Positions 57,782-64,000 of a stretch of DNA of 64,000 nt are shown here, in pieces. The stretch comes from Mycobacterium sp. Root265 (lineage in GTDB: Bacteria; Actinomycetota; Actinomycetes; Mycobacteriales; Mycobacteriaceae). The stretch spans positions 168,182 through 232,181 of the forward strand of contig NZ_LMJA01000002.1 in NCBI RefSeq assembly GCF_001428895.1, read 5' to 3'. The notes under the pieces were generated by a model, which searched no databases, was not told the origin of the DNA, and saw only the letters and a list, made by a program, of their open reading frames with translations. A program made the position numbers and the translations under genes. The stretch's first letter is position 1, and each line of letters begins with the position of its first letter.

Positions 57782-58726
57782 CTAGTTGGCGTGCAGCGCC
57801 TCATTCAGGGTGATGCCGGTGCCGTCGCGTTTGACGACCTCGACCGCACCGGACAGTGAGTTGCGGCGGAACAACAGGTTGCTCGAACCCGAGAGTTCCT
57901 TGGCCTTGACGGTCTGACCGTCCGCGGTGCTCACCTTGGTGCCGCCGGTGACGTACAGGCCCGCCTCGACTACGCAGTCGTCGCCCAGCGAGATGCCGAC
58001 GCCGGCGTTCGCGCCCAGCAGGCAACGTTTGCCCACCTTGATGACCTCTTTGCCGCCACCGGACAGGGTGCCCATGATGGAGGCGCCGCCGCCGATGTCG
58101 GAGCCGTCATCGACCACCACGCCCGCCGAGATGCGCCCCTCCACCATGGAGTTGCCCAGGGTGCCGGCGTTGAAGTTCACGAAACCCTCGTGCATGACAG
58201 TGGTGCCGGACGCCAGGTGCGCGCCCAGACGCACCCGGTCGGCGTCGGCGATGCGCACCCCGGTCGGGGTCACGTAGTCGACCATCCGGGGAAACTTGTC
58301 GATGCCGTACACGGTGACCGCCCCGCGGCGACGCAGCTTGGCACGCACCAGCTCGAAGCCCTCGACCGCGGCCGGACCGAAGTTCGTCCACACCACGTTG
58401 GCCAGCAGCCCGAAAATGCCGTCGAGATTGGCCTCGTGCGGCTTGATCAGGCGGTGGGAAAGCAGATGCAGCCGCAGGTAGGCGTCGAACGTGTCGGCGG
58501 GCTTGTCATCCAGCGAGGCGATGGTGGTGCGCACCGCGACGACCTCGACATCACGGTCGGTGTCCGGGCCGGTCAGATCGGCCAGGTTGTCGGTCAGCTC
58601 GGCGACCGACAGCCGCGTGGTGCCCGTGGATCCGTCGCCAGTCAGCTCAGGAGCGGGAAACCAGGTATCCAGGACGGTTCCTTCGGCGGCGATGGTGGCC
58701 AGGCCGAAGCCAGATGCAGCAGTCAC
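57782..58726 (-). CDS. dapD: Tetrahydrodipicolinate N-succinyltransferase DapD
   Basis: 314 residues from a GTG. The left-handed beta-helix hexapeptide region reads [40 protein letters not shown] and [20 protein letters not shown]. It transfers succinyl from succinyl-CoA to tetrahydrodipicolinate in diaminopimelate and lysine synthesis, essential for mycobacterial walls. Matches Rv1201c in length and place. TAGCGT 8 nt upstream indicates a leaderless start; divergent from dapE. Confidence 0.95.
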
Positions 58727-58760
58727 GGGGCTACACGCTACTGGACTAACCTCAGTGCCC
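58727..58760. promoter_or_regulatory. Divergent leaderless promoters, dapD / dapE
   Basis: On the minus strand TAGCGT (58740-58735) is 8 nt from the dapD GTG. On the plus strand TAACCT (58747-58752) is 8 nt from the dapE ATG. The 34-bp gap has no room for 5-prime untranslated regions, so joint regulation of two steps of one pathway is likely. Confidence 0.55.
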
Positions 58761-59828
58761 ATGGGGCTAGACCTGCGCGCCGATCCGATCGCACTGACCG
58801 CCGCGCTGGTGGACATCCCCAGCGAGTCGCGCCACGAGCGGCGCATCGCCGACGAGATCGAGGTGGCGCTGCGTGAGCAGGCGCCGCACTTCGAGGTCAT
58901 CCGTAATGGTGACGCCGTGCTGGCCCGCACCAATCTGGGCCGTTCGTCACGGGTGCTGCTGGCCGGGCACACCGACACCGTGCCGGCCGCCGACAACCTG
59001 CCCACCCGCGTCGAAGACGGCCGGATGTACGGCTGTGGCACCTCGGACATGAAGTCTGGCGATGCGGTGTTCCTGCACCTGGCCGCCACCATCGCCGAGC
59101 CCGCCCACGACCTCACCCTGGTCATGTACGACTGCGAGGAGATCGAGTCCAGCGCCAACGGACTGGGCCGCATCGAGCGCGAGCTCCCGGACTGGCTGAC
59201 CGCCGACGTCGCGATCCTCGGTGAGCCCTCCGGCGGGTTCATCGAGGCCGGCTGCCAGGGCACCATCCGGATCGTTGCGAGCGCAGCCGGAACACGGGCG
59301 CACTCGGCACGATCCTGGCTGGGCGACAACGCCATTCACAAACTCGGTGCCGTACTCGACCGGCTGTCGCGGTACGAGGCCCGCAGCGTGGACATCGACG
59401 GCTGTGTGTACCGCGAGGGACTTTCCGCGGTGCGCATCGATGGCGGTGTCGCGGGCAACGTCATCCCGGATGCGGCGACGGTGACCGTCAACTTCCGATT
59501 CGCTCCCGACCGCAGCGTCGAGCAGGCGATCGCGCACGTGCACGAGGTGCTCGAGGGTCTGGACGTGTCGCTGCAGGTCACCGATTCCGCCGCCGGCGCG
59601 CTGCCCGGGCTGGCCAACCCCGCGGCCGCAGCGCTGGTGGCCGCGGCCGGCGGACAGGTGCGCGCCAAATACGGCTGGACCGATGTGTCACGGTTCGCCG
59701 CGCTGGGCATTGCCGCGGTCAACTACGGTCCCGGGGATCCGAACCTGGCGCACAAGGTCGACGAGCATGTCGACATCGCGGCGATCACCGCCACCACCGA
59801 GACGCTGCGGGCGTACTTAACCGCTTGA
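58761..59828 (+). CDS. dapE: Succinyl-diaminopimelate desuccinylase DapE
   Basis: 355 residues. Peptidase M20 metal ligands: H70 and D72 in [11 protein letters not shown]96 in [10 protein letters not shown]127/E126 in CEEIES and the last His in [11 protein letters not shown]. It removes succinate from N-succinyl-L,L-diaminopimelate with two zinc ions. Length matches Rv1202. ATG 58761 is favoured by the -10 element; an in-frame GTG lies two codons upstream. An ABC-F gene with a regulated leader follows. Confidence 0.94.
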
Positions 59829-59838
59829 CCCGATTCGG

Positions 59839-59851
59839 TAGCATGGTTCAC
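59839..59851 (+). promoter_or_regulatory. Leaderless promoter of the ABC-F leader ORF
   Basis: TAGCAT at 59839-59844, 7 nt, then GTG at 59852, with no Shine-Dalgarno. It would start transcription exactly at the leader ORF. The upstream dapE stop ends at 59828. Confidence 0.5.
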
Positions 59852-59881
59852 GTGCTGGGAATCGACGACATCTCCGGGTAG
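59852..59881 (+). CDS. Leaderless nine-codon upstream ORF of the ABC-F gene
   Basis: GTG CTG GGA ATC GAC GAC ATC TCC GGG TAG encodes MLGIDDISG. An ATG-started version begins three codons earlier (59843) and adds MVH. The GTG is preceded by a TANNNT -10 at 7 nt. Its last codons and stop lie in a hairpin (59870-59891), and it precedes an antibiotic-resistance-type ABC-F gene by 57 nt. The arrangement is that of a translational attenuator leader peptide. Inferred. Confidence 0.5.
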   Translation: MLGIDDISG

Positions 59882-59938
59882 TTCCCGAGATCTCACCTGT
59901 CGTCCGCAAAAGCCTCTCTCTCCATATGGAGTTCCCGC
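59870..59938 (+). promoter_or_regulatory. Candidate attenuator: stop-codon hairpin and SD-sequestering hairpin
   Basis: First stem: ATCTCCGGG (59870-59878) with CCCGAGAT (59884-59891), one bulged C, loop TAGTT containing the leader stop. Second: the perfect palindrome CTCCATATGGAG (59920-59931), in which CTCC pairs with the Shine-Dalgarno GGAG 7 nt before the ABC-F ATG. GGGAA in the leader (59857-59861) can pair with TTCCC at 59882-59886 or at 59932-59936, giving alternative folds. A stalled ribosome on the leader could free the RBS. Confidence 0.5.
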
Positions 59939-61525
59939 ATGTCTATTGTCTGTTCCCATCTGTCGTTCCACTGGCCCGATGACACACCGGTGTTCACGGA
60001 TCTGTCCTGCTCGTTCGGACGCGGCCAGTTCGGGCTGGTGGCGCCCAACGGCGCCGGTAAGAGCACGTTGCTGCGGCTCATCGCCGGTGAACTCACACCG
60101 TCGGCCGGCGCCGTGGTGGTCGACGGGGTGCTGGGGTATCTACCGCAGAACCTGCCGTTCCTGGCCGAGCACACCGTGTCCGACGTGCTCGGGGTGACGC
60201 CGGTGGTCGCCGCGCTGGACGCGCTGGCCGCCGGTGATGCCGGCGAGGCCGTGTTCGCCGCCATCGGTGACGACTGGGATATCCAGGAACGTTCGCGCGC
60301 CGAGCTGGATCGGCTCGGACTGGACCTGGAGTTGGACCGCCCGTTGTCCACGTTGTCGGGTGGTCAGGTGGTGTCGTTGGGGCTGACGGCTCAACTCCTG
60401 CGCCGACCCGATGTCCTGTTGCTCGACGAGCCCACCAACAATCTGGATATCGATGCCCGCCAACGGCTTTACGACGCCTTGGAAGATTTCGGCGGTTGCC
60501 TGCTGGTGGTCAGTCACGACCGGGTGCTGTTGGACCGGATGGACTCGATCGCCGAGTTGCGTGCCGGTGAGGTCTCGTTCTACGGCGGCGGATTCAGCGA
60601 TTACCAGGCGGCGGTGCAGGCTGCCCAGGATGTTGCCGAAAGCAATATCCGCAATGCCGAGCAGGAACTCAAACGGCACAAGCAGCAGATGCAGCAGGCG
60701 CGCGAGCGAGCCGATAAGCGATCGTCGACCGCGAAACGCAATCTCAAAGACGCCGGCCTGCCGAAAATTGTTGCCGGCAAACTGAAACGGGACGCTCAGC
60801 AGTCGGCGGCCAAGGCCGACGATATGCACGCCCGGCGGGTCAGCGACGCCCGGGACCGACTCGATGACGCCGAGCGCGCGTTGCGCGATGACGATGTGCT
60901 GGCCCTGGATCTGCCCGACACCGAGGTTCCTACCGGCCGCGTGATGTTCAGCGGAACCGATTTGGCGTCAAGGACTTTCGCGGGACTCGATATCGATATC
61001 CGCGGGCCGGCACGCATCGCGCTGACCGGCGGTAATGGCGTGGGAAAGTCGACGTTGCTCCGGATCATCTCCGGTGACCTGCCGCCCGACACGGGGGAGC
61101 TGCAGCGCGGTGACGGTCGCATCGCGTATCTGTCGCAGCGGCTGGATCTGCTCGAGGAGCAGGCGTCGGTGGCGGATTGCCTGGCGGCCTACGCCCCGGC
61201 AATGTCGGTGACCCGTCGACGGCATCTGTTGGCGCAGTTCCTGTTCCGGGGCGACCGTATCGATCTGCCGATCGGCGCGCTCTCCGGTGGGGAGCGGTTG
61301 CGCGCGACGTTGGCGTGCGTGCTGTTCGCCGAGCCGGCGCCGCAATTGCTGCTGCTGGACGAACCGACGAACAACCTCGATCTGGCCAGCGTCGCTCAGC
61401 TGGAGTCGGCGCTGAACGCCTATCGGGGAGCGTTCGTCGTGGTGAGCCACGATGAGAGCTTCCTGGCCAACATCGGTGTCCAGCGCAGGCTGCTGCTGGC
61501 CGACGGGGTGTTGGTGGCGACTTAA
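59939..61525 (+). CDS. ABC-F ribosome-protection-type ATPase
   Basis: 528 residues, two ABC domains and no membrane helices. Domain 1: Walker A APNGAGKS (35-42), signature STLSGGQVVS, Walker B LLLDEPTNNLD. A linker of about 80 charged residues (ELKRHKQQMQQARERADKR) is followed by domain 2 with GGNGVGKS, ALSGGERLRA and LLLDEPTNNLD. The family has resistance factors (Msr, OleB, LmrC types) and translation factors (EttA); the first ATPase sequence is closer to the resistance type. It would act on the ribosome exit/PTC region. ATG has GGAG 7 nt upstream, inside a hairpin. Confidence 0.86.
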   Translation: MSIVCSHLSFHWPDDTPVFTDLSCSFGRGQFGLVAPNGAGKSTLLRLIAGELTPSAGAVVVDGVLGYLPQNLPFLAEHTVSDVLGVTPVVAALDALAAGDAGEAVFAAIGDDWDIQERSRAELDRLGLDLELDRPLSTLSGGQVVSLGLTAQLLRRPDVLLLDEPTNNLDIDARQRLYDALEDFGGCLLVVSHDRVLLDRMDSIAELRAGEVSFYGGGFSDYQAAVQAAQDVAESNIRNAEQELKRHKQQMQQARERADKRSSTAKRNLKDAGLPKIVAGKLKRDAQQSAAKADDMHARRVSDARDRLDDAERALRDDDVLALDLPDTEVPTGRVMFSGTDLASRTFAGLDIDIRGPARIALTGGNGVGKSTLLRIISGDLPPDTGELQRGDGRIAYLSQRLDLLEEQASVADCLAAYAPAMSVTRRRHLLAQFLFRGDRIDLPIGALSGGERLRATLACVLFAEPAPQLLLLDEPTNNLDLASVAQLESALNAYRGAFVVVSHDESFLANIGVQRRLLLADGVLVAT

Positions 61526-63255: not shown

Positions 63256-64000
63256 CTAGCTTGTCGCAGTACCGACATCGGCCGGCCAACCGGGAGTCGC
63301 AGGCAGTACCGGGAAGTCGGATCGCTTATATGTCCGCGCAGGGAAGAATTGGCGATCTTCTGGTGCATTTGGGGCGTGCTTTAGACACTGTTGCTTGTCG
63401 CGAAAGTTATCGGGCCACTCCGCCGTGAGGACATAGCCACCCTGGTGGTTGGTCACGCGCCATTCACCGAAGACATTTGTGAACGGCGCCCGCGAGGGTC
63501 CCTCCTGGGGGGGAAGCTTTTCCTCAATGGCAGGAGCTTTCAGCTCGACTCGAAAAGCGTTGATGCCGCCGTAAACGCCACTTTCGGTGGCCGCCTTGAA
63601 CTTGTCGCCGACGAGCACGCCGCTGTCGTACGTGTAGACGCATCCGTAAATCGTGGCGCCCTGATCGGACTGTTCGACTCGGAGAAGGTCGCCGCCTTGA
63701 ACTTGTCGCCGACGAGCACGCCGCTGTCGTACGTGTAGACGCATCCGTAAATCGTGGCGCCCTGATCGGACTGTTCGACTCGGAGAAGGTGTTGGCGGAA
63801 GGTGCCAACCCATGCGTGTGGTCGCCCATCGCGGAGCGGCCAAAGCTCTTCAGTCCCATCCGGCCCGTCGGGGTTGTTGGCATCGACTGATTGCGCAAAC
63901 CCCGGATACAGGTACTTCTCGTCATCGGTGAGATAAGCGAGATAGTAGGACTCCACATATGCCCGCGCTACAACGGCTGGGCCAGTGGTCAGGTCGATAC
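63256..64000 (-). pseudogene. Mycobacterial secreted-type protein interrupted by a 101-bp tandem duplication; 5-prime end outside the window
   Basis: The frame open at the right edge reads VVARAYVESYYLAYLTDDEK, FAQSVDANNPDGPDG, PHAWVGTFRQHLLRVEQSDQ and GCVYTYDSGVLVGDKFKAAT, then shifts and stops at 63540. The natural continuation ESGVYGGINAFRVELKAP through VTNHQGGYVLTAEWPDNF to the TAG at 63256 is in another frame. The switch is exactly accounted for by the 101-bp duplication at 63590-63790. Removing one copy restores one frame. Function unknown; similar proteins are exported in mycobacteria. It may be a pseudogene, a phase-variable state or an assembly error. Confidence 0.75.
63590..63790. 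repeat. 101-bp direct tandem duplication
   Basis: A 100-bp block at 63590-63689 recurs exactly at 63691-63790 with one base between, period 101 bp. Identity of the copies and a length not divisible by three indicate a recent event that breaks the reading frame of the minus-strand gene. Confidence 0.92.

Follow-up and report, generated by a model that had tools for sequence, protein, structure and literature searches.

Gene and feature layout of the locus

The window, a 64,000-nt stretch of the Mycobacterium sp. Root265 genome (contig NZ_LMJA01000002.1, positions 168,182 to 232,181 of the forward strand), carries a plus-strand gene for an ABC-F ribosomal protection-like protein of 528 amino acids (59939..61525). 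The protein scores 348 bits against NCBIfam NF000355, under the cutoff of 380, and is closest to the ribosomal protection-like ABC-F proteins. Its PDB relatives include PoxtA (lincosamide-streptogramin A resistance protein), Lmo0919 and Lsa(A), and also YheS, YbiT and EttA; orthologues reach at most 69% identity in Micromonospora and at most 67% in Streptomyces. The upstream neighbour on the same strand is dapE (succinyl-diaminopimelate desuccinylase, 58491..59828; NCBIfam TIGR01900, 518 bits against a cutoff of 304), the 3′ end of which falls within the promoter region. The dapE profile match runs from residue 96 onward; the ORF start was assigned mechanically, and the genuine one may be internal to it.

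All leader features described here are on the plus strand, and the positions of the motifs named in the original prediction were confirmed from the sequence. A −10 element, TAGCAT (59839..59844), is the sole TANNNT within 60 nt upstream of a short open reading frame (uORF, 59852..59881) and is separated from it by a 7-nt spacer. The uORF reads GTG CTG GGA ATC GAC GAC ATC TCC GGG TAG, i.e. VLGIDDISG (read as MLGIDDISG), from the GTG at 59852 to the TAG at 59879–59881. The transcription start is tentatively placed at 59852, the first base of the uORF; no consensus sigma-70 promoter was found at the locus. An in-frame ATG at 59843 was rejected as uORF start, as it overlaps the −10 element and as locus L091 (MLGIDDISG) has an ATG at the position homologous to the GTG. 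An inverted repeat, ATCTCCGGG-TAGTT-CCCGAGAT, spans the uORF stop codon (59870..59891), and its arms, ATCTCcGGG/CCCGAGAT, could form a pause hairpin. Further downstream, the Shine–Dalgarno (SD) sequence GGAG of the ABC-F gene (59928..59931), as read from the sequence, lies inside a 12-bp palindrome, CTCCATATGGAG (59920..59931). GGGAA is found at 59857–59861, TTCCC at both 59882–59886 and 59932–59936. Assignment to a known RNA family was discarded, as the three Rfam matches were at chance level, all far under the gathering score, and none fell on the leader.

Near the window end, positions 63586–63790 hold a tandem duplication (two copies of a 101-bp unit, 99% matches) within overlapping minus-strand ORFs. 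The unit is not a multiple of 3, which puts the second copy in a different frame; the repeat may have arisen recently or reflect an error of assembly.

Conservation of the uORF among actinobacteria

In Streptomyces coelicolor the uORF tiaAL (MVGDDDISG) precedes tiaA (SCO0636), and toeprints show that LSAP drugs stall ribosomes at the tiaAL start codon (PMC12421871). A transcriptional tiaA reporter was constitutive and a translational one regulated, indicating translational control, with the authors' caution that the strong ribosome binding site of the reporter may interfere with the transcriptional construct (PMC12421871). Judged from its sequence, the window leader is of the same kind and not the new family that the original prediction had considered possible. 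Its uORF, whose start precedes the ABC-F ORF by 87 nt, conforms to the tiaAL type, namely a short uORF with GDDDISG or something close to it at the end, located before an ARE5-like ABC-F gene; MVGDDDISG and VLGIDDISG occupy the same place before an ARE-type ABC-F gene.

The peptide recurs, as MAGDDDISG, MLGDDISG and similar forms, before ABC-F orthologues of at least 62% identity in Mycobacterium, Micromonospora, Amycolatopsis, Pseudonocardia, Lentzea, Saccharopolyspora, Paractinoplanes, Streptomyces and others. Eleven loci at or above this identity fell outside the first search pattern, and all except L107 have truncated or variant uORFs. Upstream of the poorly placed ABC-F start of L107, at some distance, the stretch GTGCTTGGTGACGACTGA (VLGDD*, with the asterisk marking the stop) follows GGGAG and may be a truncated SD-led uORF outside the mycobacteria. 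Among loci of at most 52% identity the sole match to the pattern is the chance-looking MPGDAG of L044. Three divergent mycobacterial orthologues (58–60% identity), L259, L260 and L261, have the uORFs MDGSNDISA, MAGSSDISV and MDGSNDISA, and show neither of the two start arrangements described below (TANNNT-N6/7 or GAGG[TC]GGG).

Two apparent modes of uORF initiation

The genus search covered 397 genomes, 155 of which gave an ABC-F match at E ≤ 1e-150; 149 of these and three named loci supplied 152 mycobacterial leaders (148 distinct; L001/L157 and L004/L197 look like duplicate genomes). The six most divergent genomes lie outside the 152: three were inspected and have variant uORFs of neither class, and the other three are G413, G416 and G422. 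Classification required the start-codon context together with either TANNNT 5–8 nt upstream or GAGG[TC]GGG within 20 nt upstream, a pattern that 144 of the 152 leaders passed. The remaining eight were anchored by hand and excluded from class counts; those present in the trees were given a class (L101 leaderless-like, the rest SD-led).

On this pattern, 93 of the 144 leaders are leaderless-like, 51 are SD-led and none is both. In the 60 nt preceding the uORF, the 93 leaderless-like leaders contain exactly one TANNNT apiece, which ends 6 nt (41 leaders) or 7 nt (52 leaders) before the start; spacings of 5 and 8 nt, also allowed, do not occur. In SD-led leaders all TANNNT sites lie 35–41 nt upstream (one site in 49 of 51, two in one and none in one). 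The window uORF, with TANNNT ending 7 nt before the GTG and no GAGG[TC]GGG, appears to lack the ribosome binding site of its own and the long 5′ UTR seen in tiaAL, traits that may not define the type, and the leaderless look noted in the original prediction recurs, with a spacing of 6–7 nt, throughout the 93 loci.

Outside the mycobacteria, 25 of 27 close loci were compared (L052 and L107 excluded). By inspection, 24 of the 25 have a purine-rich SD sequence; TANNNT lies 26–59 nt upstream in 23, and one leader has none within 69 nt. L008 (Amycolatopsis acididurans) alone among the 25 places TANNNT at a distance of 7 nt from the uORF start, possibly an independent switch to leaderless initiation.

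The trees were quick ones, built with no bootstrap; in that of 86 ABC-F proteins, 31 of 83 inner branches are strongly supported. Change counts on them are parsimony minima, and supported branches force just 3–4 per group. On the ABC-F tree start mode needs nine changes by parsimony, at least three of them forced by supported branches, so that the initiation mode changed more than once. The leaderless geometry of the mycobacterial leaders looks new.

These data bear on the idea that transcription of the leader begins at a more distant upstream site, or that the leader is a relic, with the ABC-F gene mainly under a WhiB7-type activator. MAB_2355c, a further mycobacterial gene of the ABC-F type, is indeed expressed less when whiB7 is deleted (PMC8373217). 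Against this, the spacing of −10 element and uORF is constant across the 93 loci and the two start regions coevolve (see below), so that we regard such control as very unlikely to be the main explanation. The promoter geometry likewise speaks against the far-upstream transcription start that the original prediction had named among the findings that would refute it. WhiB7 could still act in addition to an attenuator.

Shortening of the uORF and codon choice

The two classes differ in uORF length. At most six codons are found in 54 of the 93 leaderless-like uORFs and in none of the 51 SD-led ones, all of which have at least eight (Fisher's exact p = 1.7e-14, computed without regard to the relatedness of the loci). 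The shortest leaderless-like forms are the start-stop uORFs M* (16) and V* (1), 17 in total, followed by MR* (15) and VR* (2); VL* is also seen. By our own pattern, 23 of 37 uORFs of at most three codons are followed, past the new stop, by clear leftovers of the former ORF in the same frame, e.g. M*VDDVSG, M*ADAISG*, MR*DDDSG, V*VDEVSG and VL*IDDT. On the ABC-F tree, parsimony asks for a minimum of five changes to account for the start-stop form. It was not accepted as a certain reading, as the overlapping GTG+2 frame, a two-codon ORF (VS), offers an alternative start at 16 of the 17 M*/V* loci; in L236 this frame is long. In two SD-led mycobacterial leaders, L120 and L134, the insertions MLGDMDNEEVISG and MLGAMDNEEVISG enlarge the uORF with retention of the flanking motif.

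Codon usage in the 90 full-length uORFs is strongly skewed. The Ser/Thr codon is TCC in 82, ACC in seven and TCT in one, and the Gly codon GGG in 63, GGA in 24, GGT in two and GGC in one; in three window genes taken as reference, TCC accounts for 0.19 of the Ser codons and GGC for 0.39 of the Gly codons. Codon choice is accordingly constrained beyond the amino acid, as far as counts from related loci, which are not independent, can be compared.

The leaders of erm and msrD genes encode arrest peptides that stall ribosomes in the presence of drug, and MLG(x)DDISG might itself stall the drug-bound ribosome in the same manner. The peptide is indeed strongly conserved across genera and has at least eight codons in all 51 SD-led mycobacterial leaders. 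Still, peptide-specific arrest fits poorly with more than half of the leaderless uORFs being cut to six codons or fewer, with a codon choice that reaches beyond the amino acids (TCC 82/90, GGC 1/90, in related loci), and with the toeprints of tiaAL at the start codon (PMC12421871); we rate it, by a small step, the most improbable of the readings considered here. Truncation of leaderless uORFs to M*, MR* and VL*, with remnants behind the stop, suggests instead that arrest happens on the start codon. In leaderless forms the RNA appears to be conserved more than the peptide, which is probably not the sensor. Frequent shortening of leaderless uORFs, including start-stop forms, looks like a new feature.

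Predicted pairing between the two start regions

The leader RNA of the window folds at −32 kcal/mol, compared to −24.7 kcal/mol for shuffled sequences (z = −2.3; 4 of 200 shuffles equally good). The fold pairs GTGC.GGGAA of the uORF start with TTCCCGCAT (in RNA letters UUCCCGCAU) of the ABC-F start region. Fold, duplex comparison and RNAalifold support a helix with its 5′ strand, GUGC-u-GGGAAU, at 59852..59862 and its 3′ strand, which extends into the ABC-F start codon, at 59931..59940. This start–start helix is proposed to be the conserved lock of the leader.

GGGAA had been noted as able to pair with either TTCCC. The second one, near the ABC-F start, is present in 13 of the 14 leaders with the exact peptide, window included (in L119 about 19 nt before the assigned start). 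The first (59882) was dropped as a partner, being found in one of 14.

Alignments of 33 full-length and 18 short-uORF leaders were chosen by hand from the 152. RNAalifold, with no structure supplied, found the start–start contact in both, at −6.3 kcal/mol for the short leaders and weakly, at −1.8 kcal/mol and with no double-sided change, for the full-length ones. In the short set 97.6% of helix cells are paired, falling to 9–64% when the partner is slid by 1–3 columns; twelve cells are double-sided, and covariation amounts to 0.268 versus 0.171 shuffled, each reached by 0 of 500 shuffles. Two of the five measures in this set are no better than shuffles, namely double-sided pairs (2; 140 of 500) and pair types (4; 500 of 500). 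For the full-length leaders, aligned to a single fixed register, 89.5% of cells are paired, and 18–61% after sliding, with covariation not above shuffles (441 of 500 reach it).

For partner swaps and equilibrium folding, 12 of the 152 leaders were excluded for a doubtful ABC-F start or an odd start codon, leaving 140 (116 distinct) for duplex swaps and 138 distinct folded leaders for the equilibrium model. Among the 116, mean duplex energies are −13.90 kcal/mol with the own partner, −14.05 with a partner swapped within the uORF type and −10.92 with one from another type. Type-level permutations were as good as the real pairing in 3 of 20000 cases. The own partner beats swapped ones in eight of ten uORF types; in two one-member types it pairs worse than the partners of others.

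The clearest exchange concerns uORF position +4 and ABC-F position −2, which form C:G in 80, T:A in 13 and other combinations in 23 of the 116 distinct leaders, T:A being found in exactly the 13 distinct start-stop leaders. The nine MW-type leaders have T at +4 and in no case A at −2; their duplexes rely on other pairs. In L129 and L159, a change of GGGAA to GTGAA is accompanied by one of TTCCC to TTCGC. Tested on the tree with four independent pairs located on supported branches, +4/−2 behaves as predicted in 4/4 when restricted to A/G at −2, and gives 3.2 same, 0 opposite and 0.8 no difference without restriction; a sign test on four pairs (p = 0.125–0.25) has 0.05 out of its reach. A covariation of +5/−3 was dismissed, as none appears on the ABC-F tree. 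CAUG is self-complementary, so that four helix pairs come nearly free.

Non-mycobacterial leaders pair as well (own duplex −16.4 versus −15.2 swapped; 86 of 10000 permutations as good), which suggests that the helix may predate leaderless initiation. The near relatives L002, L003 and L098 have a duplex of −24.9. Taken together, the comparison argues that the two start regions coevolve, with the signal coming from the short-uORF leaders and from comparisons between uORF types; the full-length leaders in fixed register give none among themselves. Conservation of ORF and pairing in orthologues, the lack of which the original prediction had named as refuting, holds for the peptide in many actinobacterial genera and for the start–start pairing across leaders. 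The start–start helix looks new.

Other structures and the possibility of transcriptional attenuation

The palindrome CTCCATATGGAG, originally proposed to bury the ABC-F SD sequence, was rejected as the lock: it is private to the source genome, at one of the 14 leaders with the exact peptide. Three of these 14 have a CTCC at 3–10 nt before GGAG that would be able to pair with the GGAG. A different palindrome, of the GAGAGNNCTCTC type, is found at the ABC-F SD sequence of L084, L091, L095, L124, L128 and other mycobacteria, and its 3′ half can pair with the uORF start, too. The closest orthologue, L111, has a run of eight T directly before the ABC-F SD sequence that is absent from the other 13 leaders with the same peptide.

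A stretch of 30 nt around the uORF stop reaches −5 kcal/mol or lower in all 90 full-length leaders, by raw folds without shuffle baseline. Such a conserved hairpin would suit transcriptional attenuation, in which stalling on the uORF averts premature termination in the leader, intrinsic or Rho-dependent. This is the mechanism of several ARE-ABCF leaders (lmrC, vgaA, are5sc) and is predicted for tiaA (PMC12421871). At the locus, however, no terminator-like site was found within 59600–60100 (Rho-dependent termination being beyond the reach of sequence), and the conserved helix extends to the ABC-F start codon. We therefore consider transcriptional attenuation unlikely, albeit less so than the two readings weighed above.

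Proposed mechanism

The tiaA-like ARE-ABCF gene is probably controlled by a translational attenuator that senses ribosomes, with a leaderless uORF and the start–start helix as its lock. Transcription would begin at the first uORF base, and initiation on the 5′ end of the message would be leaderless. In drug-free cells ribosomes would clear the short ORF and, as the comparative evidence suggests, the 5′ end would pair with the ABC-F start region and keep the ABC-F start closed. By analogy with the tiaAL toeprints and from the anatomy of the leader, a drug preventing formation of the first peptide bond is expected to hold the ribosome on the uORF start codon, where it would cover the 5′ strand of the helix and free the ABC-F ribosome binding site. 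The peptide sequence of the repeatedly truncated leaderless forms would then be of little importance. Of the original claim that stalling on the leader peptide frees this site, the release is retained, as the pairing is one that a held ribosome would break; the role given to the peptide probably falls, in view of the M*, MR* and VL* forms.

An equilibrium model lends weak support to the release step. Blocking 16 nt from the uORF start makes the ABC-F start cheaper to open by a mean of 1.2 kcal/mol in leaderless-like and 1.9 kcal/mol in SD-led leaders, compared to 0.1 and 0.4 kcal/mol for control blocks. The gain exceeds 2 kcal/mol in 48 of 138 leaders (controls: nine), and the uORF-start block is the best of all in 60 of 138. 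Individual leaders vary, with gains of 0.67 for the window, −0.24 for L082 and −1.54 for L004, and L094 responds better to control blocks. Co-transcriptional folding and the hairpin over the uORF stop may weigh more than equilibrium opening.

Relation to known systems and implications

Apart from the shared peptide, the window leader differs from tiaAL in its layout. The tiaA 5′ UTR has 194 nt and tiaAL its own ribosome binding site, whereas the window uORF looks leaderless; terminator and anti-terminator folds are proposed for tiaA, whereas the conserved partner in the window is the ABC-F start. The term "mycobacter" has zero occurrences in the main text of PMC12421871 and in the available main text of the uORF4u paper, PMC10219788. 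Likewise, "leader" and "attenuat" have zero occurrences in the available parts of two M. abscessus ABC-F papers, PMC13041422 (MAB_2736c) and PMC8373217 (MAB_2355c). Three-codon uORFs are described for cplR (MRI), vmlR (MIN) and are5sc (MLV) in the accessible portions of PMC10201436 and PMC12421871. These too are very short uORFs linked to stalling by PLSA/LSAP drugs, and cplR combines translational with transcriptional attenuation (PMC10201436); a leaderless or start-stop form and start-codon pairing, in contrast, go unmentioned for them in those portions. Among titles and abstracts of the literature searched, which left preprints and most subscription papers outside its scope, no start-stop or leaderless drug attenuator in bacteria was found.

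Leaderless polycysteine uORFs reportedly serve as attenuators in mycobacteria. They (Canestrari 2020) are likewise leaderless short ORFs acting as mycobacterial cis-regulators and, going by the title of that work, respond to cysteine, whereas the window uORF is predicted to sense ribosome-targeting drugs at its start codon.

In its broadest form, which we put forward tentatively and rate slightly below an even chance, the proposal is that mycobacteria made the tiaAL attenuator nearly peptide-free: a leaderless start codon, minimally AUG-stop, would report drug-stalled initiation by pairing with its counterpart in the resistance gene. If true, drug sensing by a leader would need just an initiating ribosome, and neither an arrest peptide nor a Shine–Dalgarno sequence would be required. 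The natural series of full peptide, truncated and start-stop forms makes the role of the leader peptide directly testable, and TANNNT-N6/7-RTG combined with start–start complementarity provides a searchable signature for further leaderless attenuators. For the mycobacteria themselves, it suggests how their ABC-F ribosome-protection genes stay silent and then become induced.
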